DNA of 64,000 nucleotides, taken from assembly GCF_902506425.1 (NCBI RefSeq), contig NZ_LR732469.1:2408770-2472769 (forward strand), read 5' to 3'. The translations under genes were made by a program, and so were the position numbers. Within the stretch, counting starts at the first letter, position 1. Every line of letters begins with the position of its first letter. Under the pieces are notes generated by a model. It was not told the origin of the DNA. It saw nothing but the letters and a program-made list of their open reading frames with translations, and did not search any database. The stretch is from Novosphingobium sp. 9U (lineage in GTDB: Bacteria; Pseudomonadota; Alphaproteobacteria; Sphingomonadales; Sphingomonadaceae). This document shows, piece by piece, positions 5,651 to 59,953 of the stretch.

Positions 5651-5893
5651 TCACTGTTCGGTCGGCCAGGTGCCGGCGGCAGATTGCTGGGCAAGCGGCG
5701 AAGTGGTGTCGCCGATCTCGAACAGCGAGCCATCCTTGTCCTTGCCATAGACGGAGAGCGCGAGGCCGAGATCGACGGCGCTGACCGAGGAGTGCTTCGC
5801 CTGCTGAGAGGCAATGCCGCCATTGCCGGAGTCCGTTCTGGGGCTTCGCCGCATCGCGCAATTCTCCCGAGCGCCGCCCATCGTGACGTGCAT
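5651..5893 (-). CDS. Small hypothetical protein upstream of the hydantoinase pair
   Basis: An open frame of 80 codons ends 15 nt before the HyuB start and could be the first gene of that operon. A better-supported start may be the third ATG (residue 14), which has GGGAGA about 8 nt upstream, giving 67 residues. I do not recognise the product: it is polar, has one cysteine before that later start, and has no clear signal peptide or membrane segment. Some HyuA/B-type carboxylases carry a small extra subunit, so a structural role is conceivable, but nothing in the residues proves it. It could also be a chance frame in high-GC DNA. Confidence 0.35.
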   Translation of the reverse strand: MHVTMGGARENCAMRRSPRTDSGNGGIASQQAKHSSVSAVDLGLALSVYGKDKDGSLFEIGDTTSPLAQQSAAGTWPTEQ

Positions 5894-5918
5894 CTTCAGC
5901 CTGCTCGCTAGGCCGCGT

Positions 5919-5961
5919 CCGGATGGTCCGCAAGGTGCGGCACCGCTGCTGCCACATCCGG
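5919..5961. promoter_or_regulatory. Nested inverted repeats in divergent promoter region
   Basis: In the gap between the leftward small ORF/hydantoinase genes and the rightward Rieske ferredoxin, CCGGATG (5919-5925) and CATCCGG (5955-5961) form a 7-bp inverted repeat that encloses a tighter one, CCGCA-agg-TGCGG (5928-5940). The location fits an operator for a divergent promoter; the AraC gene nearby is a possible regulator. Chance occurrence is not excluded. Confidence 0.25.
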
Positions 5962-6050
5962 CAAGACACAGTGCAGCGTGAGCACAGCGCAGCCGGCGTC
6001 ATGCGTGCTAGCGCCGATGCCGGTATTGCGAACGAACGGACGATGTTTCT

Positions 6051-6365
6051 ATGGGCGACCCGACCTTCCTGCGAATCCTGCCGCAGAGCGAACTGCAGAC
6101 GGGCGAGAAGAGGGCGGTCGACGTCGCCGGCAAATCCATCCTCATCTGCCATGTCGGCGACAAGCTGTTCGCCGTCTCCAACATCTGCTCGCATGCGGAC
6201 GAGAAGCTGGAGTGTGGGCGCTTGGGCAACGGCTGGATTGCTTGTCCGATCCACGGTGCCCGGTTCGACCTGGCGAGCGGCAAGGCAAAGAACCCGCCAG
6301 CCAAATGGCCGATCGCCACGTATCGGATACGCGTCGTGGACGAATGGATCGAAGTCGCGGTGTAG
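6051..6365 (+). CDS. Rieske-type [2Fe-2S] ferredoxin (non-haem oxygenase electron carrier)
   Basis: A 104-residue protein with a complete Rieske cluster motif: C46-x-H48, then C65-x2-H68 in the CPIHGARFDL context. Size and lack of any other domain match the small Rieske ferredoxins that shuttle electrons to ring-hydroxylating oxygenases, or the NirD-like/biphenyl-dioxygenase BphF type. A Rieske oxygenase alpha subunit lies 11 kb away (17196-18623) and could be the partner. No matching reductase is present in the window. It is divergent from the hydantoinase genes and followed by the convergent AraC gene. Confidence 0.92.
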   Translation: MGDPTFLRILPQSELQTGEKRAVDVAGKSILICHVGDKLFAVSNICSHADEKLECGRLGNGWIACPIHGARFDLASGKAKNPPAKWPIATYRIRVVDEWIEVAV

Positions 6366-6426
6366 ACAAGGCCCCGACTTGCGACTGGGTGACCTGAAAG
6401 CCCGCCTGAGCGACGGAACGGAAGTG

Positions 6427-7401
6427 CTATGCCAACGCGGGCACCTGGCGCCCGCGGAACTCGCGCGGGGCAACGTTGTAGCGTGACTTGAACATGCGGC
6501 TGAAGTGGGCGCTGCTCTTGAAGCCGGCGAGATAGGCGATCTCGCTGATGGCGTAATGCTGCATCTTCTCGTCGCTCAGCCAGTCGTGCGCGGTGGCCAT
6601 GCGCTTGTCCCAGACGAGGGTCGAGAACGACAGCTCGCTCTTCTTCAGCACGTGACACAGGTAGCGCAGCGAGATCCCGCAGCTGTCCGCGACCATCCGC
6701 GCATTGAGATCCGGATTGGCGAAGTTCTGATTAATGTACCGCGTGATGTCGCCGATCCGCTTGTCGGAGATGGACTCGCGCGCCGGCGGATTGCCGGAGA
6801 GACGCGTGATGGTCTTGCTGATCCCGGTGAGCAGCGCCTGCACCAGTTGCTCGGCCATGTCCTGGTCGATCTGGTCATCCTGCTCGAACACCAGGTCGAG
6901 GATGCGATCGGTCAGCGCCAGTTCGCCGCTGGATGTCGGGAAAGGACGGCCGACTTCGATGTTGTCGCCCAGTACGGCGTAGATCTTGTGGGAAGGCACG
7001 ACGACGTGCATCACCTCAAGCTCGCCGTTCTCGGGTGGAACCAGTTCCATGTAGAACGGCCGGGTCGAGCGGGTGATGGCGCACTCGCCCGCGTGAACGA
7101 CATGGCGCCCGGCGGCATGGGCGATGCTCATGTGCCCGCGCCGCATGAACCAGAAGATCACCAGGTTCGTCTTGTCGTTGCGGATGTGCCCCCAGGACCG
7201 GCGGAACGCGAGCCCCGACCGCGACACTTCCTTGCAGATGGCATACTCGCCCGCGAGGCTCTTCTCGATGCGCACGTCGACGTTGTGCGACGACAAGGGC
7301 TTCAGATCGCCGTCGTAGTAATCCGCCTTGTTCCGGCCGCGGAACTCGAACCGCCGCGATTCGTGGTTAGCGGTCGTCATGTCGAATGCGAGCACAGGCA
7401 T
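6427..7401 (-). CDS. AraC-family transcriptional regulator
   Basis: This 324-residue protein has an N-terminal AraC-binding-like cupin region (about residues 40-190) and a C-terminal double helix-turn-helix (about 215-320), ending in the family signature ISEIAYLAGFKSSAHFSRMF followed by Y-x-V-A-P-R-E-F. The start ATG at 7401 has AAGG 9-10 nt upstream. Genes on both sides (Rieske ferredoxin, TonB receptor, P450 operon) are likely targets. The effector is presumably the compound degraded by the island, which is an inference from position. Confidence 0.93.
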   Translation of the reverse strand: MPVLAFDMTTANHESRRFEFRGRNKADYYDGDLKPLSSHNVDVRIEKSLAGEYAICKEVSRSGLAFRRSWGHIRNDKTNLVIFWFMRRGHMSIAHAAGRHVVHAGECAITRSTRPFYMELVPPENGELEVMHVVVPSHKIYAVLGDNIEVGRPFPTSSGELALTDRILDLVFEQDDQIDQDMAEQLVQALLTGISKTITRLSGNPPARESISDKRIGDITRYINQNFANPDLNARMVADSCGISLRYLCHVLKKSELSFSTLVWDKRMATAHDWLSDEKMQHYAISEIAYLAGFKSSAHFSRMFKSRYNVAPREFRGRQVPALA

Positions 7402-13648: not shown

Positions 13649-16600
13649 TCAAGCAGCGACCTGTCGGTGTGGCGGCGCTGCCGTTTCCGTTTCGAGCCGT
13701 GCCAGCAACTCTGCCAACTGCTTGCGGTAAGCGGCGACACCCGCTTCCTTGACCGGACCGAAGCCGGCGACCAGCGCCGCAGCGTCGGCGATCTCGGTGC
13801 AGAGTTCCAGGTTCTCCTGCGTTGCGCGATCGGCAACGGACAGGATCAGCGCCCGATACTCGCCGATGAGCGCGCGCTCCATGCGGCGTTCCGCAGTCAT
13901 GCCGAACACGTCGAGCGGCGTCCCGCGCAGCCCCTTCATCCTTGCGAGCAATCCGAAGACGGGAAAGATCCAACGCCCCATCGCGATCTTGCGCGGGCGC
14001 CCGGTCTTGAGGTCCTTGCGGAAGGCGAGCAGCGGCGGAGCCAGGTTCACTTCGATCTTGTAATCGCCGTCGAACTGGGCGGCGACGCCCGCCTTGAACT
14101 CGGGCGCGCTATAGAGGCGCGCGACCTCGTACTCGTCCTTGTACGACATCAGCCGCGACAGCTGCGCGGCGACTGCCATGAGGAAGGGTTCAGCCGCCTC
14201 GACCTTGCGGGCACTGAGCCGTGCCGTGACGTCATCGAGGAACGCACGATACTGCGCCGCGTAGTTTTCGCTCTGGTAGCCTGCGAGATGCCGGCTGCGG
14301 CTCTCGACCGTCGCGGGCAGGTTCTCTGGTTCGGGCAGGGCGGGGTCGAGCTGGGCGAAACGCTCCATCTCATCGGGAAACGCCGCGGCGATCCGACCCA
14401 GGGTCAGCGCAAGCAGGTTCGCCTCCACGGCCGTGCCGTTGAGCCGGACTGCTTGTGTGATCGCATCGATCCCGATCGGCAGAAGCCCGGTCTGCGCTGC
14501 GTAGCCGACCATCAGCAGATTGGTGAAGATCGTGTCGCCCATCAGCTTGGCGGCGAGCGCGTTGGCGCGCACCAGAGCGATGTTCTGCCCCTCGACCCGG
14601 CGGCTGATGGCGGGAACGAAGGCGGCGGCGCGAAAATCCAGGTCCTTGCGCGTCTGGAACTCACCCGTCGGCACCACGTCTTCGTTGGCGATCACGTGGC
14701 TGTCAGCGCGCACGGTCTTGGCGACGTCCGGGCCGGCCGCGACGACGAGGTCGCAGGCGATCAGCAGGTCCGCTTGGCCGACGCCTAGTCGTGCGCTGGG
14801 GATCCGCTCGGCATCGTCGGCGAAGCGGATGTGGCTCATCACGCCGCCGCCCTTCTGGGCCATGCCGGTCATGTCGAGTACCTTGGCGGCCTTGCCTTCG
14901 ATGTGCGCCGCCATGCCGAGCACTGCGCCGACGGTCAGCACGCCGGTGCCGCCGATGCCGGTCACCAGCATGGCATAGCTGTTGGACACGTCGACGATGC
15001 GAGGGTCACGCAGCCTGGCGATTAGCGGCTCCAGCGCCCCAATGTCAATCGCGCGCTTGGCGATCCTGGCACCCCGTACGGTGACGAAGGAGGGGCAGAA
15101 GCCTTTGACGCAGCTGTAGTCCTTGTTGCAGTTCGACTGATCGATCGCACGCTTGCGGCCGAACTCGGTCTCGAGCGGCGTGATGCTGACGCAATTCGAT
15201 TGACGCGAGCAGTCGCCACAGCCTTCGCAAACGGCGGGGTTGATGTAGAGCCGCATGTCCGGATCGGGGTAGTTGCCGCGCTTGCGGCGGCGGCGCTTCT
15301 CATTGGCGCAGGTCTGCTCGTAGATGATGGCGGAGACGCCCTTCACCTCGCGCAGCTCGCGCTGCAGCGCGTCGAGGCGATCGCGTTCGAGAACGCGGAC
15401 TTCGGCAGGAAGCTTGCCTGCCCATTTCTCCGGCTGGTCGCTGACCATGACCACTGGCGTCACACCCTCGGCGATTAACTCCGCGACGATCTGGTCGGGC
15501 TGGATGTTGCCCTCCAGGGGCTGGCCGCCGGTCATGGCCACTGCATCGTTGTAGAGGATCTTGAAGGTCACGTTAGTTTTGGCGGCCAGCGCCGCCCGGA
15601 TCGCTAGGATGCCGGAATGGGCGTAGGTGCCGTCGCCCATGTTCGAAAAGACGTGCTCGGTTTCCGTGAAATGCTGCGCGCCGAGCCAGGGCAGACCTTC
15701 GGCGCCCATGCCCACGACGTTCATCGTCCGGCGCTCGGGCATGAAGGCGGCGAGACCGTGGCAGCCGGTGGCGCCCATCGCCAGGCTGCCATCGGGCACG
15801 TTCGTGCTGGTGTTGTGCGGGCATCCCGAGCAGAAGTAGGCGGGCCGAACGGCGCCGGCCGGAGCGATGGCGGCGGACTCCATGGTCGCCAGCCGCTCAC
15901 CAGCAGCGCGGGTAGGGGCATCGAGAACGCCAAGGCCATCCAGACGGGAGACGATCGTCCGGCGCACGAGGCCGGCGTCCAACACGTTGTCGAGCGGCAG
16001 GAGCACGCGTCCCTGCTCGTCGCGCTTGCCGACGATCGTGGGGCGAGCGCCAGGCATGGCGAAGAGCGCGGAGGCAAGCTGCTCTTCGATGACCGGGCGC
16101 TTTTCCTCGACGACCAGGACCTCGCGCGCGCCGGCGCAGGCGCTGCGCAGGAAGTCCTGATCCATCGGCCAGGTCATGCCCAGCTTGACCAGCGATATCC
16201 CGAGCACGCGGCAGCGCGCTTCGTCCAGGCCGAGCGCCAGAAGCGCCTCGCGCACGTCGAGATAGGCCTTGCCGGCGGTCAGGATGACGAGGTTGCGCTG
16301 CTCGGGCGCGATCACCACGCGGTTGAGCCCGTTGGCCCGGGCGAACTGTACCGCAGCCGGTAGCCGCTCGTTCACCACCAGGGATTCCTGCACCAGCGGC
16401 GGCAAGCTGCGGCGGATGTTGAGCTGTGCGCCAAGCGGCAGTTCAGGGTGTACGATGGAGATTTCGGGCAGCGTCACCGAGGAGGTCAGGTCGAGGGTGT
16501 CGGTCACCGCCTTGAGGCTGACGTAGAGGCCGCTGAAGCGCGACATCTCCCAGCCGAGCAGTCCGTAGGCGATGATCTCTTCGGTCGTGGATGGCGCCAG

Positions 16601-49510: not shown

Positions 49511-50869
49511 TCAGTCCAGGATCACATAGACCCGGTCGCCGAGGAACATCATGTCCGCGTCGAGCGCGGGAGGCGTCTTCTGCGAGCCGAACGCGAAGAA
49601 CTTGCGCTCGGTCCGCCCGTCCGGCTGCGTCATCGTGATGGTGTAGTTCTTGATCTGGTAGCGGCCGGCGCTGGCATTGCTGCCGTGAACGCTGACGCCG
49701 ACGCCACTCGTCGCACCGGTGTTCATGCCGCCGCCACTGCCCTTGCGACCGAAGCTGCCGTCCGGGGAAAAGGTCAGATCGGTTCGCCCGCCGACGATCA
49801 CGTCGCCGCCCAGTGCCGTGTTGCCGCCACCGGAGACGCGTGAGTAGGTGGCCGCCAGCTTGCCGCCACTCGCCTCCGCCGGGAACGCCTTGAAGAACTG
49901 GCCGTCCTGGAGTGCCACCGGATCCGATCTGCCATCCTTGTCGTCATCGTCGACCAGCGTGTAGCGGGCGCCGGTCTTCTGCCACTTGCCGAAGTGGCCC
50001 GGCTTGGCGGCGTGCTCCGCGGCAAGGTCGACATCCTCGAGCGCCGCTTCGTCGATCGCGTAGTACGTGCCGTCACGGAACAGCACGAGTGGCTCGAACT
50101 CCTGCACCATCATCCCGCCAACGCCGAAGGTGAACGCGGAGCGGAAGTAGACGCCTTCGACGTTCTTCCAGTTCTCGGGATGGAGGGGTGCCACCCCGGC
50201 CGGCACAGGCGCAGTGCGGGCGCTCGGCCGATTGCCGGCGCTCGCCGGCGTCTTGGGTGTGAAGCCTTGCGGGGTGAGCGTGACCGCGCGCAGATCGGTC
50301 TTGAGCATCTGCTGCGCCTCGCCCGCGATCGCGTCGCTCATCTGCTTGCGCTGTGCGGCCGGCTGCTTGGCGACGGCCTGCATGCGGGCATCGACCAGCA
50401 GGCCCTGGATGATCATGGTGTCGGCGATATCCTGCTTCTGCGCGTCGGTCATCTTGGCCAGGGCAGGGTTCTTGGCGAGCACACCGGCGATCTGCCGCCG
50501 CGCGCCCTGAACCAGAGCGCGGTCGGGCTCACGGCCAACTAAGCCGTTGGCGGCCTCCCAGGCATTGACCCAGTAGACGGTGGTCATGTCCGCCACGTCG
50601 TCGGGATCGAGCCCGACCGTGCGCAACTGCGGCGCGATCTGGGCGATTATGTCCTGGCTAAAGGCTTTCTGCAGCGCGTCCGCCATCGCCGGGTTCTGCG
50701 CCCGGGTCGCTGCGATCAGCTCCTGCTCCTTGGCGGCCAGCAATGCCGGATCGCGGGTGAAGTGGGTGGGGGAGGGAGCCTGCGCCAGAGTCGCGCCGGG
50801 CCAGGCGAGCGCGCCGGCTATTGGCAACACGTGCAGCGCCAGCGCGCAAACGGGATCACGGAAGTTCAT
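49511..50869 (-). CDS. Exported protein with DUF6683-like domain
   Basis: 452 residues. Signal peptide to about residue 30 (GALAWPGATLAQA). The first half has ADMTTVYWVNAWEAANG, which I associate with DUF6683 proteins, and a helical ladder. The second half is a beta-rich region with an FRDGTYYAIDE segment and glycine-rich GKLAATYSRVSGGGNTAL. Start ATG 50869 has GAGG 7 nt upstream. Divergent from the DUF11 surface operon, so it may be part of the same cell-surface programme. No enzyme motif is evident. Confidence 0.75.
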   Translation of the reverse strand: MNFRDPVCALALHVLPIAGALAWPGATLAQAPSPTHFTRDPALLAAKEQELIAATRAQNPAMADALQKAFSQDIIAQIAPQLRTVGLDPDDVADMTTVYWVNAWEAANGLVGREPDRALVQGARRQIAGVLAKNPALAKMTDAQKQDIADTMIIQGLLVDARMQAVAKQPAAQRKQMSDAIAGEAQQMLKTDLRAVTLTPQGFTPKTPASAGNRPSARTAPVPAGVAPLHPENWKNVEGVYFRSAFTFGVGGMMVQEFEPLVLFRDGTYYAIDEAALEDVDLAAEHAAKPGHFGKWQKTGARYTLVDDDDKDGRSDPVALQDGQFFKAFPAEASGGKLAATYSRVSGGGNTALGGDVIVGGRTDLTFSPDGSFGRKGSGGGMNTGATSGVGVSVHGSNASAGRYQIKNYTITMTQPDGRTERKFFAFGSQKTPPALDADMMFLGDRVYVILD

Positions 50870-51224: not shown

Positions 51225-52199
51225 GTGATAGGGGCGATCTGCAAAGGCAGTGGGAAGACTTGGGCCAGCGCTATCGCTGCGGTCCTGGCCCTCCTGCCTG
51301 CCGCACGCGCCGTCGCCGCAATCGCGGCGGGCGAGCCTGTCGTCAACACCGCACGCGCCACCTACGAAATGGACGGCGCGAGCGGTTCGGTCTCCTCGAA
51401 CACAGTATCGACGACGGTGCCCGAGGTTCTGGATCTGACGCTGCTCAACACAGCGCTGGAACCGCTTCCGATCGAAGGCCAGGACCCGGCTACGTTCGGC
51501 ATCCCTTTCGTCCTGACGAATACCGGCAATGGCAACGAAGCCTTCCATGTGGAGGCAGCGGCGCCACGCCAAGAAGTTGCCCCGACGGTCGCAATAGATG
51601 TCGACGGAAACGGGGCGTACGACCCCGCCGTCGACATCACCCTTTCCGCGGATCAAGCCACTCCGATCCTGGCACCCGGTGCGCAGCTCAAGCTGCTGCT
51701 GCGCTTCGCCAAGCTGCCGACAAGTGCGGGCAGCGCCACCATCACCGCCCGCGCGGTGACCGGCAGCGGCGTGCCCGGGACGCTTTTTGCCGGTGCTGGG
51801 GACAGCGGCAGCGACGCCCTGGTGGGCCGCACGCATGCCGAAGCGACGCTGCCGATCGCCTACCAGCTGGGCTCTGCAGGACCTGCCGCGCAGCTCATCA
51901 AGTCGCAGATGGTACGAGCGCCCGATGGCGGCGCCACTCCCGTGCCGGGAGCCGTGATCACCTACCGTCTGGCGCTCACCGCCGGCGGTGATGCGCCATT
52001 GTCCGACGCCGAGATCGTCGACCCCATTCCGGCCGGCACGGCTTTCGTGCCCGGCTCCATCCAGATCGAGGACGTCGCCGCCAGCGATGTCGCCGATGCC
52101 GACGCCGCCTTCTTCGACGGCCAGGCCATTCACATCGCCCTTGGCGAGATCAGCCAACCCACGACCCGCGTCGTGACCTTCCAGGTGACCATCCTATGA
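51225..52199 (+). CDS. Exported DUF11-like protein, first gene of surface operon
   Basis: 324 residues from GTG 51225. Signal sequence to about residue 30 (ALLPAARAVAA). A sandwich module with the NTGNGNEAF signature follows, then an EF-hand-like acidic loop DVDGNGAYDPAVD (residues 125-137), and a DUF11-type module near PGAVITYRLALTAGGDAPLSD. The stop overlaps the next start by ATGA. DUF11 modules act as surface Ig-like repeats, so a secreted/surface protein is likely. No LPXTG or pilin motif. Confidence 0.82.
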   Translation: MIGAICKGSGKTWASAIAAVLALLPAARAVAAIAAGEPVVNTARATYEMDGASGSVSSNTVSTTVPEVLDLTLLNTALEPLPIEGQDPATFGIPFVLTNTGNGNEAFHVEAAAPRQEVAPTVAIDVDGNGAYDPAVDITLSADQATPILAPGAQLKLLLRFAKLPTSAGSATITARAVTGSGVPGTLFAGAGDSGSDALVGRTHAEATLPIAYQLGSAGPAAQLIKSQMVRAPDGGATPVPGAVITYRLALTAGGDAPLSDAEIVDPIPAGTAFVPGSIQIEDVAASDVADADAAFFDGQAIHIALGEISQPTTRVVTFQVTIL

Positions 52200-52678
52200 T
52201 CAAGTCCATCCACTTCGCGATCGGGAGCAGTGCGCTGGCTGCTCTTGCAAGCATCGCCGTGATCGCCCCGGTGCAGGCTAAGACCAGCGGCGTGACGCTG
52301 AACAACAGCGTGCTGGTGCAGCAGAAGAGCGCCGCAGCCGACGGCACCACGCGCGTGGCGCTGGTGCCCGCCAAGCGCGTCGTCCCCGGCGACCGCGTGG
52401 TCTTCCGCATCGCCTACAAGAACAATCTGGGCCAGCCCGTCAGCGGCATGGTCGTCAGCAACCCGGTTCCGCCCAACTTGTCCTACCGCGGACCAGCTGA
52501 GGGTTCTCCCGCTCCCGAGGTGTCGATCGACGGCACTCACTTCGCACCGCTCTCGGCGCTCAGCACCGCAGGACAGCCAGCCCGGCCCGATCAGGTCCGC
52601 GCGGTTCGGTGGAACGCCAAGGGAGCGGTGCCGGCCGGAGGAGCAGGTCAGTACTCCTACGAGGCATCGGTCAAGTAA
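52196..52678 (+). CDS. Exported DUF11/CARDB-like small protein
   Basis: 160 residues from ATG 52196 (ATGA overlap). Signal peptide to about residue 28 (VIAPVQA). One Ig-like module: PGDRVVFRIAYKNNLGQPVSG with the VVSNPVPPNLSY strand. No cysteines, so folding would not depend on disulfides. Second gene of the operon; probably a structural or adapter component alongside its larger neighbours. Confidence 0.78.
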   Translation: MIKSIHFAIGSSALAALASIAVIAPVQAKTSGVTLNNSVLVQQKSAAADGTTRVALVPAKRVVPGDRVVFRIAYKNNLGQPVSGMVVSNPVPPNLSYRGPAEGSPAPEVSIDGTHFAPLSALSTAGQPARPDQVRAVRWNAKGAVPAGGAGQYSYEASVK

Positions 52679-52732
52679 CGGCATCAACAACAACGCAGCA
52701 TAACCACCACAATCGCACTGGATTTATTCAAA

Positions 52733-53821
52733 ATGCGCAACACGATGATCAAATCCGCGCTGCTATGTGGCAGCGTGACACTCTTTGCTTGGGCCAGCAG
52801 CGCGCAAGCTGCAGGCACTGAGGCTGGCACCAGCATCCCCAACCAGGCCAGCGTCAGCTACTCGGTAGGCGGTACGACGACGAGCGTGGACTCGAACGTC
52901 GCCACCTTCGTCGTCGACAAGAAGGTTAACCTGACGGTCACCGGCGGCGTGATCACGCAGACCGCGATCGGCACCAGCGATCAGGTGACCGCGTTCCAGG
53001 TGACCAACCTCACCAACGCCACGCAGGACTTCCATCTTTCGCCCGACCAGCAGAACCTCTCGATCCCGATCCTGGGTGCGGACAACTTCGACGTGTCGAA
53101 CCTGCGCGTCTTCGTCGACGTCAACGGCAACGGTACGTATGAAGCGGGCATCGACACGGCGACCTACATCGACGAGCTCCATCCGGAAACCTCGGTGACC
53201 GTGTTCCTGGTCGGTAACATTCCCAACGTGCCGGGTGAGGACATCGCGATCGTCTCGCTCTCGGCGCAGGCTGCGGCCGGCGGTTCGGTCGGTACGGAAG
53301 GTGCGACGCTGGTGGCAACCTCGCTGCTGCAGGCGGACTCGCCTTCGACCATGGACATCGTGTTCGCCGATGCGAGCGGCACCTTCGACCTGGCGCGCGA
53401 CGGTATCGGCCGTGCGTTCAACGCCTACAAGATTGGCACGGCGGCCGTGTCCATGACGAAGACGGCGCGCGTTCTCTCCGATCCGGTGAACCTGCTCGTC
53501 AATCCGCGCGCCATTCCGGGCGCGGTGCTGGAGTACTGCCTCACCGTCAGCAATGCCGGTCCGGGCATCGCGACTGGGGTCAACCTGACTGACCAATTGC
53601 CCGCAGGCACCACCTACGTGCCTAACTCGCTCAGCGTGGGCGGCGTCGGTTCGGGCGGCCAGTGCGTGCTGAACGGCACCACCGAGGACGACGATACCAC
53701 GGGTGCGGATGAGACCGACCTCTATGGCGGTTCTTTCGACGGCACCGTGGTACGTGGCACCATCCCGACACTTCTGGTGGGAACCTCGCTCACCGCGGCG
53801 TTCCGCGTCACCGTCAACTGA
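52733..53821 (+). CDS. Exported DUF11 protein with calcium-type loop
   Basis: 362 residues from ATG 52733 (or 358 from ATG 52745). Signal peptide MIKSALLCGSVTLFAWASSAQA. An acidic loop DVNGNGTYEAGID at residues 129-141 matches the loop in the first gene. The C-terminal DUF11 module has AIPGAVLEYCLTVSNAGP, GVNLTDQLPAGTTYVPNSL and FRVTVN. Two cysteines (in EYCLTV and GGQCVLNG) could form a disulfide. Paralogous in design to the first gene, suggesting a multi-component surface structure. Confidence 0.82.
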   Translation: MRNTMIKSALLCGSVTLFAWASSAQAAGTEAGTSIPNQASVSYSVGGTTTSVDSNVATFVVDKKVNLTVTGGVITQTAIGTSDQVTAFQVTNLTNATQDFHLSPDQQNLSIPILGADNFDVSNLRVFVDVNGNGTYEAGIDTATYIDELHPETSVTVFLVGNIPNVPGEDIAIVSLSAQAAAGGSVGTEGATLVATSLLQADSPSTMDIVFADASGTFDLARDGIGRAFNAYKIGTAAVSMTKTARVLSDPVNLLVNPRAIPGAVLEYCLTVSNAGPGIATGVNLTDQLPAGTTYVPNSLSVGGVGSGGQCVLNGTTEDDDTTGADETDLYGGSFDGTVVRGTIPTLLVGTSLTAAFRVTVN

Positions 53822-53885
53822 CCTCTCGACAGCGCTGAATACCAAACTCCGGCGGGCAGGGCGCTCGCTGGAGCAAGGAGAAGTC

Positions 53886-56800
53886 GTGCTCCATCTCCGC
53901 CGCATTCTGTGCCTTGCCGCAGCCCTCATGGGTTTGACGAGCGGGATCGTCGCGCCCGCGGCAGCACAGACGCGCGTCGAGAACACGGCGCGTTTTCAGT
54001 ACAGGATCGCAGGCAGCGGCGCCCTGCAGACTATCGCATCCAACACGACGATCCTGGACGTGCAGGCGGCCGCCACGCGACAGAAACGTCCGACCAAGCT
54101 CAGCTTCCGGCGCATTGGCAACTACACCTTCAAGCCGGACGATCCGGCCGATTGCCGGGCCGGCCCGCCTGTGCAGTTCACTCCGAGCGACGTGAGCGAG
54201 GATGAACTGAACGACCAAGCCGAACTGGCATCGCTCGACATCAGCGATCCTTTCATGATCGTCCTCGACAACGAAGGCGGCAACCACGATCCAAACGTGC
54301 GCGAGACCGCATGGATCACAGCGAGCGCCGTCGAGACGATCCAGATCGTGCTCACTGAAACAGGTCCGGACACCGGCGTCTTTGCCGGGGCTCTGCCTTC
54401 AGGCGAGGCGGCCAATCGCGCCGAGGCCATCAACAACCCCTGCAATATCCACGTCGACCAGGCGAGCAGGTTCACCCTGAAGTTCACCGAAGACGATTTC
54501 AGCTACGGCTCTGAAGACTCGATGATGATCGATCCGCTCGGCTTTGTCTTTGATTCCACCACCGGCACAGTCGTCGAAGGCGCCACGGTCAGCGTCGTCG
54601 ACGACGCGACCGGTGCCCCGGCGCCGGTGCTGGGCGACGATGGCGTCAGCGCCTATCCGTCGAGCCTGGTCGTGGGGGCGCGGATCAAGGATGCGAGCGG
54701 GTTCGAGTACCAGCTCAAGCGCGGTCAGTTCCGCTTCCCACTGATGAACCCGGGCACGTATCGCCTCATTGTCACTCCTCCCGTCGGGTATCGCGGTCCG
54801 TCGACGGCGAGCCCGGCGCAGTTGGCGGGGTACAGCGGGCCGAATGGGCGGTACCACATCAGAGATGCCTCGTTCAGCCGCAGGTTCGTGCTGAACTCGC
54901 CCGAGCCGCTCAGCGTCGATATCCCCGTCGATCCCGATGTCAGCGGCGAACTCCTGCTGGAGAAGACGGCCTCGGCTCGAACCGCTTCGCCCGGTGACAT
55001 GGTCGAGTACCGCCTCCGCCTGACCAATCGCGATACGAAGCGTACGCTTGCCCCTTCGACAATCGGCGACAGCCTGCCGGCCGGGCTGCGCTATCGGCGG
55101 GGCAGCACGCGCGGAGCCGACGAGCCGCAGGTGTCTGGCGACGGCAAGACGCTGACCTTCAAGGCGCGCGCGCTAACCGGCGCTGCCGCTCTCGACATCC
55201 GCTACGTCGTCGAAGTCGCCCCAGGTGCGTCGCAGGGCGAGGCGATCAACCGCGCGCAGGCGACTTCGGGGCGCGCGACCAGCAACGAGGCGATCGCATC
55301 GGTCCGCATCAAGCCACTGCTGTTCAGCGACGCCATGACGCTGATCGGCCGCGTGACGGAGGGCGACTGCGCCGATCCACTGCAAGGCCGCAAAGGCGTG
55401 CCCGGCGTGCGCATCATGCTGGAGGACGGCACCCTGACCGTCACCGACCGCGATGGCCTCTACCACTTCGAAGGCGTGAAGGCCGGCACCCACGTCGTCC
55501 AGCTCGATCGGCAGAGCATCGCAGCGACGCATCAGCCCGTGGCCTGCGACCGCGACACGCGCCAGGCGGGCAGCGCGATCTCCCGCTTCGTCGAGGCGAG
55601 CGGCGGCAGTTTGCCGCGCGTGGACTTCCAGCTGCGTCGCACCGGGAAGGCCGCTGCAGAGACCTCCGCAAGGCCGATCGCCGTCGCCACCGACGCCGAT
55701 GCTGCGGGCAGCAACCGCGAGTGGCTGAAGGACGCGAGGCCCGGCATCGACTGGCTCTTCCCGGCCATGGACCACAATCCGCGCGCACCGGCGCTGCGTG
55801 TGGTCGTCAAGCACAAGCCCGGCCAGCGCGTTGCGTTGCGGGTGAATGGGCAGGCGGTCGATCCGATCAACTTCGATGGCATCACCAGCGACGAGGCGCG
55901 CGGTGCCGCGGTGTCGGTCTGGACCGGCGTGCCCCTCAGCCAGCGCGACAACCTGCTCGAAGCGCGCGTGCTCGAAGCCGACGGCGCTCTTGCCACCACG
56001 CTGACCCGGTCCGTCCATTTCGCAACCGAGCCGGTGCGCGCCGAGTATGTCGCCGAGCACTCGCGCCTGGTCGCCGATGGTTTGTCCCGCCCCCTGATTG
56101 CCGTGCGCGTGACCGATCGCGACGGCAAGCCAGTGCGTGCAGGCACTGCGATTGGGTTTCGGGTCGATCAGCCTTACGTCACCGCGATCGAGAGCGACGT
56201 GCAGGCGCGGCGTCAGCTCGCCGGGCTGGAAGGCGCGCCGGCCGTCGCCCGCGTCGTCGGCGACGATGGTCTGGCATTCCTCGCGCTCGAGCCAACGATG
56301 CAGGCCGGCGCCGTGAAGCTGACGGCGCTGCTGGACGAGAGCGGCAAGACCAAGGAGGTCCCGATCACCTCTTGGCTGACGGCTGCGGCGCAGGGCTGGA
56401 CCGTGGTTGGCTTCGGCAAGGGCACTCTGGGGTACAACACGCTGCGCACGCACTCGTCGGCGCTGAGCGGCAAGGGCAGGCACGATGTCGTTACCGATGG
56501 CGAGCTGAAGTTCTATGCCAAGGGGCGGATCAAGGGCAGCTGGCTGCTGACCCTCGCCTACGATAGCGACCGCAAGTACGATCCCGATCGCGGTCTGCTC
56601 GGCACCATCGATCCCGATCGCTACTACACTGTCTATGGTGACGGCTCGCGCCAGATCTTCGACGCGGCGACCACCCGCAAGCTTTACCTGCGGCTGGAGC
56701 GCAAGGAGTTCCGCGCTCTGTTCGGCGACTTCGAGACCGGCATGACCGAGACGAACCTGACACGGTACAACCGCACCTTGAACGGCGTGCGCGCCGAGTA

Positions 56801-58907
56801 TCACGGCAACCGCGTCACCTTCACCGGCTTCGCCGCAGAGAACAGCCAGCTGTACGGCCGTGACGAGATCCAGGGCAACGGACTGTCCGGCCCGTATCGC
56901 CTCAGCGGCGAGGGCATCGTGCCCAACAGCGACAAGGTTCGCCTCGAAACCCGCGACCGCTATCGCTCCGAGAAGATCGTGGCGACGCAGGAGCTGACCC
57001 GGCACATCGACTACGACATCGATCCGGACGCCGGGACCTTGCGCTTCCGCGAGCCCGTGCTGAGCCGCAACGCGGACCTGAACCCAATTTTCATCGTCGC
57101 CGAGTACGAGACCGCGCAAGGCCGCTCCAAGACCAAGGTCATGGGCGCTCGCGCCGCGGCTCGCTTCGCGCACAACCGCGTGGAAGTGGGCGCCAGCGTC
57201 CTGCGTGACGAGAGCACGCCGGCTGCGACCGTCGCCGGCACCGACCTCAAGGCCAAGCTGGGCCAAGGCACCGAGCTGCACGCCGAGGCCGCTACGGGTG
57301 GCCGCCGCGGCTTCACGCAGGATCGCGCCTTCGAGGCCGAGGTGCTGCACCAGAGCCGCACCGTCGATGCCAGCGCCTATGTGCGCCAGCAGGACAGCGG
57401 CTTCGGCCTCGGCCAGCAGAACGGCGTGGAGGCAGGCACTCGCAAGATCGGCATGGATGGCAAGGTGCGCCTGACCGATCGGCTGTCCTTCGCCGGCTCC
57501 GCCTGGCACCAGGTCAACCTCGACGACGAAGGCCGCCGCATTGCCGCCGATGCGCGGGTCGAATATCGTGCACTGACCGGCACGCTCTATGCCGGTGCAC
57601 AGCTCGCTTCCGACACGGGCCTCAGCGGGCGCAAGCGCGACTCTCGCCTGCTGACCCTCGGCGGCAGCCAGCGCCCGTTCGGCCAGGCGTTGGAGATCTT
57701 CGGCGAGACGCAGCTGGCGGTCGGCGGCAAGGACGAGAGCATCGACTTCCCGGTCCGTCACAAGCTCGGCCTCGCCTACCAGGTCAAGCAAGGCTTCCGC
57801 CTGATCGCCGAGCATGAGATCGCCGCAAGCGACGTGAAGGCGCACCAGACCCGCGTCGGCGTCGACGTCGCACCCTGGGCCGGCGGCAAGCTGCTGGGCA
57901 CCGTGGCGCAGGAGGCCATCGGCGAGAACGGCGCGCGCACGTTCGCGCAGTACGGTCTCGACCAGTCGATCCCGCTCGGCAAGCGCTGGACGGTGGATGC
58001 CACATTGGACGCCACAACCACCGTCAGCGGCACCGTCGCGCCCGACGACGTGATCGACCCGCTGCACCCGCGTGCGACCGGTGGCACGCTCGACCGCGAT
58101 AGCGGCAACGGCGACCACCAGGCCTTCACGCTGGGTGCGACCTACCGCCAGGACACCTGGACCTGGAACGGCCGTGCCGAGTATCGCCACGGCTCGCGCT
58201 CGAACCGCTGGGGCGTGACCAGCAGCGCCTTGCGCACACTGGGCGAGGGCAAGACCCTTGCCGCCGGCCTGCGCGCCTACGAAGTCAAGGAGCGCGACGG
58301 CGGCGTCGCAGCCTTCATCTCGGCCGACATCGCCCTGGCTTTGCGACCGCTCGACAGCCGCTGGTCGGTGCTGGAGCGGCTGGAACTGCGCCGCGAGCGT
58401 GCCGATGCCGATGTCCAGTTCAGCAACCTGCTGGGCAGCGCCAACGTGATCGGCGACGGGCAGATCTCGACGCGGATCGTCAACAACCTGGCGATCAACT
58501 ACCGCACCGGTGTCGAGGGTGACGGCCATGGCTGGGAGGCGAGCCTCTATCATGGCGCCAAGTACGTCATCGGCCGCTTCGGCGACGATCGCTACACCGG
58601 CTTCATCGACGTGATCGGGTTCGACTTGCGCAAGGATTTGGGACCGCAGTTTGACTTCGGCCTGCAGGCGAGCCGGCAGCATAGCTGGTCGAGCCACGCC
58701 ACCAGCTACAGCGTGGGGCCCTCGCTCGGCTTCTCGCCCGGCAACGGCATCTGGATGAGCGCGGGCTACAACATACGGGGTTTCCACGATCGCGATTTCG
58801 CCGGGGCGCGCTACACCCGGCAGGGACCTTTCGTGACAATGCGGATGAAGTTCGACCAGCTTTCGCTCAGCGCGGCGGCGCGGCAGGTGATGGGAGCAGC
58901 GAGATGA
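53886..58907 (+). CDS. Giant outer-membrane protein: DUF11/SdrD-B modules plus C-terminal beta barrel
   Basis: About 1673 residues from GTG 53886, which has AAGGAG 6 nt upstream; earlier in-frame starts overlap the previous gene and lack a site. Signal peptide to about residue 28 (GIVAPAAAQ). N-terminal sandwich region (~30-280), SdrD-B/CNA-B-like module ~ 270-350, DUF11 module ~ 370-480 (SPGDMVEYRLRLTNRD), another SdrD-B/carboxypeptidase-regulatory module ~ 500-560 (GVPGVRIMLEDGTLTVTDRD). From about residue 850 on it is a very long series of alternating strands, with R-Y-x-aromatic patterns, that reads as an outer-membrane barrel. It could be the export/anchoring channel for the smaller DUF11 proteins. 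The stop overlaps the next gene by ATGA. Confidence 0.85.
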   Translation: MLHLRRILCLAAALMGLTSGIVAPAAAQTRVENTARFQYRIAGSGALQTIASNTTILDVQAAATRQKRPTKLSFRRIGNYTFKPDDPADCRAGPPVQFTPSDVSEDELNDQAELASLDISDPFMIVLDNEGGNHDPNVRETAWITASAVETIQIVLTETGPDTGVFAGALPSGEAANRAEAINNPCNIHVDQASRFTLKFTEDDFSYGSEDSMMIDPLGFVFDSTTGTVVEGATVSVVDDATGAPAPVLGDDGVSAYPSSLVVGARIKDASGFEYQLKRGQFRFPLMNPGTYRLIVTPPVGYRGPSTASPAQLAGYSGPNGRYHIRDASFSRRFVLNSPEPLSVDIPVDPDVSGELLLEKTASARTASPGDMVEYRLRLTNRDTKRTLAPSTIGDSLPAGLRYRRGSTRGADEPQVSGDGKTLTFKARALTGAAALDIRYVVEVAPGASQGEAINRAQATSGRATSNEAIASVRIKPLLFSDAMTLIGRVTEGDCADPLQGRKGVPGVRIMLEDGTLTVTDRDGLYHFEGVKAGTHVVQLDRQSIAATHQPVACDRDTRQAGSAISRFVEASGGSLPRVDFQLRRTGKAAAETSARPIAVATDADAAGSNREWLKDARPGIDWLFPAMDHNPRAPALRVVVKHKPGQRVALRVNGQAVDPINFDGITSDEARGAAVSVWTGVPLSQRDNLLEARVLEADGALATTLTRSVHFATEPVRAEYVAEHSRLVADGLSRPLIAVRVTDRDGKPVRAGTAIGFRVDQPYVTAIESDVQARRQLAGLEGAPAVARVVGDDGLAFLALEPTMQAGAVKLTALLDESGKTKEVPITSWLTAAAQGWTVVGFGKGTLGYNTLRTHSSALSGKGRHDVVTDGELKFYAKGRIKGSWLLTLAYDSDRKYDPDRGLLGTIDPDRYYTVYGDGSRQIFDAATTRKLYLRLERKEFRALFGDFETGMTETNLTRYNRTLNGVRAEYHGNRVTFTGFAAENSQLYGRDEIQGNGLSGPYRLSGEGIVPNSDKVRLETRDRYRSEKIVATQELTRHIDYDIDPDAGTLRFREPVLSRNADLNPIFIVAEYETAQGRSKTKVMGARAAARFAHNRVEVGASVLRDESTPAATVAGTDLKAKLGQGTELHAEAATGGRRGFTQDRAFEAEVLHQSRTVDASAYVRQQDSGFGLGQQNGVEAGTRKIGMDGKVRLTDRLSFAGSAWHQVNLDDEGRRIAADARVEYRALTGTLYAGAQLASDTGLSGRKRDSRLLTLGGSQRPFGQALEIFGETQLAVGGKDESIDFPVRHKLGLAYQVKQGFRLIAEHEIAASDVKAHQTRVGVDVAPWAGGKLLGTVAQEAIGENGARTFAQYGLDQSIPLGKRWTVDATLDATTTVSGTVAPDDVIDPLHPRATGGTLDRDSGNGDHQAFTLGATYRQDTWTWNGRAEYRHGSRSNRWGVTSSALRTLGEGKTLAAGLRAYEVKERDGGVAAFISADIALALRPLDSRWSVLERLELRRERADADVQFSNLLGSANVIGDGQISTRIVNNLAINYRTGVEGDGHGWEASLYHGAKYVIGRFGDDRYTGFIDVIGFDLRKDLGPQFDFGLQASRQHSWSSHATSYSVGPSLGFSPGNGIWMSAGYNIRGFHDRDFAGARYTRQGPFVTMRMKFDQLSLSAAARQVMGAAR

Positions 58908-59953
58908 GCCGGTCATTCCGCGCACGCCTGTCGCGTCTCGTGGCGCTCTTCGTGGCCATCCTGCTTGCCCTGGGAGCAGGTGCGGCGCAGGCGTGCACGA
59001 CGACGCCGTCAATTTCGACGGACTTCGGCACGTTCTCGGCACAATCGGTCAAGCAGGGCGCGATCCCATCGCAGTTCAGCCGCGCCGGACTCAACTGCCC
59101 GACGAGCGCCGTGGTCTTACTCGGCATCAACTACATAAGGGCCAAGTTCCAGAGCAAGAACGGCATGAAGCTGATGAACGGCACCAATGCGATTGCCTAC
59201 ACAGCATCGGCCGACCCGGCCGGCACCACGCAGTTCACGCAGAACGGCACCATCGACTACATGCAGAACAATCTCTTGAACGTGCTCGGCCTGCTCGGCG
59301 GCAGCAACGCGGACATGCCGATCTACGTCAAGCCGGCGGGTGGCACGCTGCCTGCGCAGGGCGTCTACACGGACAGGATCACGATCACCTGGAATTGGTA
59401 CTTGTGCCCCGGGGTGAATGCCCTGATCGTCTGCGTGGGAACTCCGGACCAAGGCGCGAACGTGACGTCGGTCATAGACGTGACCTTGACGGTAGGAGCG
59501 AAGTCGGTGCTGCTAACCACCTCCACCGGCACCACTTGGGACCCGGTGAACGGGACGAGCAACCCCAAGGCTCTGCCCGGAGGCAAGCGGCGCATGATCG
59601 TCAGCGTGACCAACCCCGATCTCGTGCCCGTCGACAACAACACGCTGGGGCTGAACCTGGCGGTGCCTGCGGGCACCAGCATGGCGCTGGATGGTGACGG
59701 CACCGGCTCTGGCGCCTTCCTGATCTTCACTGACGGCACACCGGCTTCGTCTCTGGCGCTGACCTACACGGCTCCGGGCAGCACCACCGATGACGTGGAT
59801 TTTTCGTCCGATCGCGGGGTGAGCTGGACTTATGTGCCAGTGGTCGGCGACACCGTCTCGCAGGCAGCGATCACCAACGTCCGCGTGCGACCGCGAGGAG
59901 CGATGGCGGCGGGCTCTCGCTTCAGCTTGTCGGTCTCCCTGAAGACGAAGTGA
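58904..59953 (+). CDS. Exported spore-coat-U-like (SCPU) protein, last gene of surface operon
   Basis: 349 residues from ATG 58904 (ATGA coupled). Signal peptide to about residue 30 (ALGAGAAQA), followed at once by CTTTPSISTDFGTFSAQSV, a SCPU/secreted-pilin-like start with one early Cys and several later ones (NCPTS, YLCPG, IVCVG). The C-terminal third has a DUF11-like sandwich. SCPU domains occur in Csu-type chaperone-usher pilins. No chaperone or classic usher gene is adjacent, which makes the operon unusual. Confidence 0.8.
   Translation: MSRSFRARLSRLVALFVAILLALGAGAAQACTTTPSISTDFGTFSAQSVKQGAIPSQFSRAGLNCPTSAVVLLGINYIRAKFQSKNGMKLMNGTNAIAYTASADPAGTTQFTQNGTIDYMQNNLLNVLGLLGGSNADMPIYVKPAGGTLPAQGVYTDRITITWNWYLCPGVNALIVCVGTPDQGANVTSVIDVTLTVGAKSVLLTTSTGTTWDPVNGTSNPKALPGGKRRMIVSVTNPDLVPVDNNTLGLNLAVPAGTSMALDGDGTGSGAFLIFTDGTPASSLALTYTAPGSTTDDVDFSSDRGVSWTYVPVVGDTVSQAAITNVRVRPRGAMAAGSRFSLSVSLKTK

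Follow-up and report, generated by a model that had tools for sequence, protein, structure and literature searches.

Chaperone-usher pili, including the archaic SCPU/Csu type, have an N-terminal donor segment, an incomplete C-terminal immunoglobulin (Ig)-like domain and a two-part tip consisting of a head and a pilin-like domain. SpyTag/SpyCatcher was engineered by splitting a natural isopeptide domain. We analyzed a 64,000-nucleotide stretch of contig NZ_LR732469.1 of Novosphingobium sp. 9U (hereafter, the window), in which five genes, g1 to g5, form an operon at 51225-59953. By the logic of its sequences, this operon appears to be a conserved system that resembles donor-strand pili in how it works yet lies outside the chaperone-usher class, and we put the probability at roughly two in three that it encodes a surface fibre that is assembled without an usher on a split DUF11/CLIPPER domain. 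Like chaperone-usher pili, the operon combines a donor segment with an incomplete Ig-like domain, has a probable two-part tip and carries an SCPU head in g5; unlike them, it uses a different Ig family, and what its domain lacks is a hairpin that bears the isopeptide Asn. The proposed fibre would also resemble SpyTag/SpyCatcher in joining a split isopeptide domain between chains, although this split would be natural and would lie in a CnaA-like domain.

According to the excerpted text of PMC12617251 (PMC, PubMed Central), the nine strands of the CLIPPER (DUF11) crystal structure 9IFR form two sheets, Lys715 is bonded to Asn806, Asp748 is putatively catalytic, the final strand comes after Asn806, and the bonds described for the domain are intramolecular. 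The domain of the operon belongs to the same family (PF01345) by sequence, with Lys, Asp and Asn in matching columns; unlike CLIPPER, however, it breaks off ahead of the Asn strand, and the hairpin with the Asn forms the N-terminus of either the same protein or a different one. The Asn appears to lie on the eighth CLIPPER strand, hence the cut would fall between strands 7 and 8. As described in the excerpt of PMC9715654, archaeal threads (Saci_0406) are head-to-tail donor-strand fibres with a proposed cap protein and a proposed intersubunit isopeptide bond, which joins Asn57 to the N-terminal amino group of Asp24 in subunit n+2. By that description the fibre proposed here would share with them the donor-strand chain, the intersubunit isopeptide and the cap, whereas the threads belong to an archaeal envelope without a barrel and use a different bond. 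DUF11 appears in another context in the excerpt of PMC12282271, and cargo of a type 11 secretion system was rejected as a candidate. No description of this operon was found by title or abstract opening among the open-licence PMC papers listed.

The five open reading frames (ORFs) all lie on the plus strand, and their N-termini, judged by eye, resemble type I signal peptides, in agreement with a preliminary description of this DNA that had listed five consecutive exported genes. The two ATGA overlaps it reported were seen at g1/g2 and g4/g5. It had also spoken of two large DUF11 proteins; these are of the DUF11 type, but they are paralogues (E 7.6e-13) of just 324 and 362 amino acids (aa), g1 and g3. 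Part of the C-terminal region of g5 is similar to g3 (E 3e-4). The start of g4 is a GTG with AAGGAG upstream, and the longest g4 ORF begins at 53703. The features are as follows, with "donor" for the N-terminal hairpin and "acceptor" for the truncated C-terminal DUF11 domain.

51225..52199, plus strand: g1, putative stalk subunit A, 324 aa; signal peptide, donor hairpin, Ig-like domain and truncated C-terminal DUF11 (acceptor).
51327..51422, plus strand: g1 donor hairpin, Asn41 at 51345-51347; corresponds to the piece absent from the truncated DUF11.
51870..52196, plus strand: g1 acceptor, Lys226 at 51900, Asp266 at 52020; the chain stops ahead of the Asn strand.
52196..52678, plus strand: g2, small acceptor-only DUF11-like protein, 160 aa, in which the Lys/Asp pair is absent; may act as a periplasmic chaperone or as a cap.
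52733..53821, plus strand: g3, putative main stalk subunit, 362 aa; donor hairpin, Ig-like domain, acceptor.
52832..52912, plus strand: g3 donor hairpin, Asn37 at 52841-52843.
53447..53818, plus strand: g3 acceptor, Lys243 at 53459, Asp287 at 53591; ends in AAFRVTVN, then stop.
53886..58907, plus strand: g4, putative base, 1673 aa; N-terminal donor hairpin, surface-type domains, predicted outer-membrane barrel.
53967..54065, plus strand: g4 donor hairpin, Asn33 at 53982-53984.
54951..55319, plus strand: complete internal DUF11 of g4, which carries Lys360, Asp395 and Asn455 on the same chain and serves as an internal triad control.
55383..55556, plus strand: CarboxypepD_reg / SdrD_B-like domain of g4 (Pfam).
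56400..58853, plus strand: predicted g4 beta-meander, about 40 strands, interrupted at about residues 1017-1054 by a conserved segment that contains four short strands.
58904..59953, plus strand: g5, tip candidate, 349 aa; SCPU head and C-terminal acceptor, no donor.
58976..59389, plus strand: SCPU head of g5, the sole SCPU match in the genome.
59492..59950, plus strand: g5 acceptor, with Lys replaced by Thr and Asp by Leu at the triad positions.

Gene order was compared in 25 loci with enough flanking sequence, namely the window, L019-L031 and L033-L043. The order g2-g3-g4 was the same in 25/25 loci, and g1 was present in 21/25, the loci in which it was not found being L019, L020, L023 and L025. 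L020 and L023 nearly duplicate each other (96% in g4) and were each counted; L032 (85 residues of g4), L011 (g4 alone on its contig) and the two-gene loci L044 and L045 were left out. Because the order is conserved, the arrangement is more than chance. All five are genuine genes in an old arrangement, shared by hosts that range from sphingomonads to Asticcacaulis, Methylotenera and Sulfurovum, and the earlier proposal that they form one linked system came through this comparison intact.

Pfam DUF11 (PF01345, curated cut-off 24.6 bits) matched g3 with 33.9 and g4 with 26.8 bits; g1 (13.6 bits) and g2 (18.5 bits) scored below the cut-off, and the Pfam scan gave no DUF11 match in g5. The DUF11 repeat model TIGR01451 of NCBIfam (cut-off 24) was passed by g1 (38.1 bits), g3 and g4, and failed by g2 (20.5 bits). 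In g4, CarboxypepD_reg was above its Pfam cut-off and SdrD_B slightly under it (27.5 vs 29.7). The N-terminal domain of g5 belongs to the known pilin family SCPU (PF05229; 41.4 bits vs a cut-off of 22.4).

Aligned to 9IFR (E 0.03), the complete DUF11 domain of g4 has all three triad residues, Lys360, Asp395 and Asn455; across loci its Lys and Asp were kept in 24 of 25 copies, and the copy in L043 has Arg/Glu. The chain ends 5 residues past a common Phe column in g1 (21/21), g3 (23/23), g5 (19/19) and g2 (22/22), and the complete DUF11 copies of g4 continue for 36-40 residues past it (25/25). These end-point and triad counts cover g3 in 23 of the 25 loci (L034 was dropped for an assembly gap and L020 was not included), g2 in 22 of 25 (without L020, L027 and L037) and 19 fifth genes (L020 and L031 were not included, and none was identified in L027, L030, L034 or L043). 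Aligners do tend to bring chain ends together, but the Phe also stood at -6 in unaligned sequences, in 118 of 120 g3 homologues. By profile alignment, the acceptor matches complete DUF11 (142 columns) over columns 5-101 and no further (E 1.4e-15); the donor profile, for which donors were taken from 65 of 69 proteins and 7 mispicked or unusual ones removed, falls on columns 111-132. Alignment A2 comprised 69 of 120 homologues.

The residues of the isopeptide triad are conserved on both sides of this cut. In the C-terminal halves of g1 and g3, Lys was present in 283/283 and Asp in 282/283 sequences (one gap), with both residues kept at every locus counted (21/21 for g1, 23/23 for g3), and the Asn partner was kept in the N-terminal hairpin in 282/283. 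Among 106 aligned g1 and g3 rows, the only invariant columns were Lys243, Asp287 and, in domain 1, Asn92. Mature g1, g3 and g4 open with the hairpin that the truncated DUF11 lacks: g4 has the donor and no terminal acceptor, g1 and g3 have both, and g5 and g2 have the acceptor only. The N-terminal motif of g4 was found by pattern in 116/120 proteins, the four misses being three proteins with a late given start and one with the Asn but no following Ala. Triad residues in the acceptor-only proteins were as follows: g2, Lys 0/22 and Asp 1/22, with Asp seen by eye in the g2 of L105 and L106; g5, Lys 15/19 and Asp 15/19. As a control within proteins, long multi-DUF11 relatives were read by eye, and the Asn strand was kept in 6 of 7 readable internal copies (the seventh has Asp); the five C-terminal copies that were profile-matched to their end stop at the break (L033, L035, L037, L041 and, with one extra residue, L101). 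An incomplete C-terminal Ig domain and an N-terminal complementing segment are therefore both present at the sequence level. The unifying part of the system is the split DUF11 domain, not SCPU, and the two halves quite probably dock between neighbouring proteins.

Further tests of hairpin docking gave weak outcomes, and the following points include several that speak against the docking or the bond. When chimeras were scored against PF01345, true donors raised the score by 2.7-6.5 bits and the g5 N-terminus, as a control, by 0 and 0.9 bits, but attaching the g2 N-terminus as a further control added 3.1 bits, inside the range of true donors. The donor profile alone was weak (probability 3%, one-to-one E 0.015). 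A donor hidden Markov model (HMM) gave some matches at the expected place in DUF11 arrays (e.g. L033, L037 and L041); reversed controls equalled or outscored these matches, reaching 6.8 bits vs at most 1.0 on real arrays, and the HMM was not used as proof. With asymmetric pseudolikelihood covariation, the C-terminal domain was the partner in 15 of the 20 strongest couplings made by hairpin strand 1, whereas strand 2 was even (10/20) and the two strongest hairpin couplings pointed to domain 1. The mean-field top 60 contained three pairs linking the hairpin to the C-terminal domain (9-256, 20-233 and 9-323) vs one linking it to domain 1, but the top 120 contained 4 vs 6. When the g3 model is aligned with integrins, several of the alignments include the hairpin jointly with domain 1. 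The donor Asn, read by eye, is replaced by Ser or Gly in g1 of L043 and L107 and in g4 of L106 and L101, and the g5 of the window, as well as that of its close relative L021, has lost both Lys and Asp.

From these data we infer docking between proteins, a covalent bond, a chain order, an export route and a role for g2. The C-terminal DUF11 of g1, g3 and g5, which ends before the last two strands, would be the acceptor, the hairpin with the isopeptide Asn, which opens the mature chains of g1, g3 and g4, would be the donor, and the hairpin of each subunit would complete the C-terminal domain of its neighbour. The chain would run from a tip of g5 (acceptor only) through a stalk of g3/g1 (donor and acceptor) to a base of g4, which would offer a donor and whose barrel would hold it in the outer membrane. 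Wherever Lys and Asp are kept, the joint may close spontaneously as a Lys-Asn isopeptide between subunits; such covalent locking is plausible, though we lean faintly the other way. The g5 of the window and the fifth gene of L021 lack Lys and Asp, and therefore the tip joint there would be non-covalent. Without this pair, g2 could likewise accept a hairpin but hardly lock it; most likely it would be a periplasmic chaperone that reversibly caps donor hairpins, or alternatively a cap. The g4 barrel may double as export pore and anchor. Genome-wide, PF01345 matches were confined to g3 and g4, and those of the g1/g3 profile to g1 and g3 (6 of 24 candidates scored); therefore, the partners should come from the operon. 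The genome may hold a weaker DUF11-like protein elsewhere.

The same hairpins could instead act within one chain, such that the hairpin of g1 or g3 completes its own C-terminal domain as a circularly permuted DUF11, and stapled monomers decorate g4. Both proteins hold both halves, with Lys, Asp and Asn conserved within one chain, and covariation is blind to the difference between intra- and intermolecular contacts. However, the g4 hairpin has no terminal acceptor and the acceptors of g5 and g2 have no hairpin, and therefore these proteins need partners from other chains, which PF01345 does not offer outside the operon. We consider self-closing subunits unlikely.

The C-terminal part of g4 was predicted as a very long beta-meander resembling outer-membrane barrels, with about 40 strands by DSSP that we do not claim to form one closed barrel. 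The model had a mean predicted local distance difference test (pLDDT) of 73.4 and a predicted template-modelling (TM) score of 0.63, and the Foldseek TM-scores by query length were at most 0.20 among the matches listed. The earlier claim that g4 ends in a very long barrel was put to the test by this prediction and stands in the form of a barrel-like meander. A 1289-aa minus-strand ORF antisense to g4 (55173-59042) is most likely a GC-rich shadow ORF.

Relatives of a two-gene kind, with a separate giant DUF11 protein beside a g4-like barrel, were found in L044, L045, L088-L100 and L102; the giant protein reached 3762 aa within the stretches fetched, and one open frame had 4360 aa. Their barrel is homologous and a DUF11 stalk is common to both kinds, but there it is one giant polypeptide and here subunits. 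Both ends were read in L044 and L045, where the barrel protein has no donor hairpin and the giant protein no DUF11-type end; in the other two-gene relatives, the C-termini alone were read. Two further DUF11-type proteins beside the two-gene pair of L094 (11487-15213) end in the truncated way; therefore, the border between the two-gene and five-gene kinds is not sharp, and these proteins possibly link them. Such relatives favour the view that the operon is an ordinary DUF11 fibrillar-adhesin set, in which g4 is autotransporter-like, g1, g2, g3 and g5 are periplasmic or loosely attached, and the end point is a family habit: homologous barrels stand beside single giant DUF11 proteins (L044, L045, L088-L094 and others), no split was seen in L044/L045, and the excerpt of PMC12617251 describes DUF11 stalks as frequent among fibrillar adhesins. 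This view leaves unexplained, however, the invariant Lys/Asp without an Asn strand in the same C-terminal domain, the Asn hairpin that opens three different proteins, and the truncation of C-terminal but not internal copies, and we regard it as quite unlikely.

Returning to the split-domain fibre, the fifth-gene product had a variable N-terminus and a constant C-terminus in the 19 examples examined, which matches the expectation for a tip protein. The heads of the window and 11 others of the 19 were scanned with Pfam. Matches above the cut-off were SCPU (window), P-domain (L035 and L041), GEVED (L040), SpaA_3 (L039) and two DUF11 stretches (L033); Calx-beta (L036), NIDO (L029) and MAM-like (L026) matches were below it, and no Pfam head family was found in L019, L028 or L038. 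The fifth genes of L019 and L025 encode 173 and 170 aa, barely more than a signal peptide and the C-terminal domain. The position of the gene also varies, being upstream in L035 and L041 and on the opposite strand in L039 and L042. The preliminary description had treated SCPU as a theme of the operon: the match in g5 is genuine, but SCPU forms the g5 head in this lineage, and other heads take its place elsewhere. A degenerate chaperone-usher system, with g2 as chaperone, g4 as usher and g5 as SCPU pilin, is very improbable, and membership in that class was rejected, since the genome (completeness 100) has no match to the usher family PF00577 or the PapD-like chaperone family PF00345, with E. 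coli controls positive for both, just as the absence of chaperone and usher had been noted before.

The g4 query was present in 14 of 61 genomes (own genome included; G015 and G027 are of the two-gene type) and, in a sample of 398 genomes across the phylum, in 58 (again counting the own genome, and with many two-gene relatives). A collection of species representatives yielded 14 loci; this search used six short peptide patterns and hence reached close relatives only. Within the order, 296 sampled genomes were compared with the g1/g3 profile, and 81 had a match. Hosts in the species-representative search included Sphingomonas, Sphingobium, Novosphingobium and Asticcacaulis, as well as metagenome-assembled genomes (MAGs) labelled Methylotenera, Rhodospirillales and Sulfurovum. 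Longer or rearranged variants occurred in six loci of five other families outside the class (L101 and L103-L107, from G688, G609, G394, G568, G328 and G368), and 1560 g4-like proteins, possibly including two-gene relatives, scored E <= 0.001 among 7995 candidates. L105 and L106 have two donor-plus-acceptor subunits that differ from g1/g3 in detail, and L105 has a 1942-aa multi-DUF11 protein with an acceptor at its end.

Several neighbouring genes were also recorded. Response-regulator-like genes flank the operon in L020 (16825-19985), L023 (16824-19984), L025 (16046-19263), L028 (6559-7239) and L031 (6287-6973); the LuxR type was confirmed with Pfam in L031 only, the others being assigned by eye, and a protein of about 830 aa comes next in L020, L023 and L025. 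A PilZ-domain gene lies directly 3' of the operon in L019 (15517-16176), L020 (15498-16148) and L023 (15498-16148), confirmed with Pfam in L023 and assigned by similar start in L019 and L020, hinting at control by cyclic di-GMP. In L026, a Methylotenera MAG, an OmpA-family protein (15001-16008) stands between g4 and the fifth gene and is possibly an extra peptidoglycan anchor. Upstream of the operon, the window encodes a DUF6683 protein (Pfam; 49511-50869, minus strand), and L021 has at the same relative place a 452-aa ORF (5660-7018, minus strand) with a start resembling that of the DUF6683 gene.

Tentatively, and with more doubt than for the fibre itself, the system may be a widespread Gram-negative fibre in the form of a natural split isopeptide polymer, made without sortase or usher, with g2 as chaperone, g5 as interchangeable tip and g4 as barrel for export and anchoring. 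The analysis proposes a function for proteins that are named only "DUF11 domain-containing" or "TIGR01451 repeat". If the proposal is true, the operon would represent a new pilus-like assembly route in Gram-negative bacteria, and its subunits would be natural intermolecular counterparts of engineered tag/catcher pairs with a CnaA-like fold.

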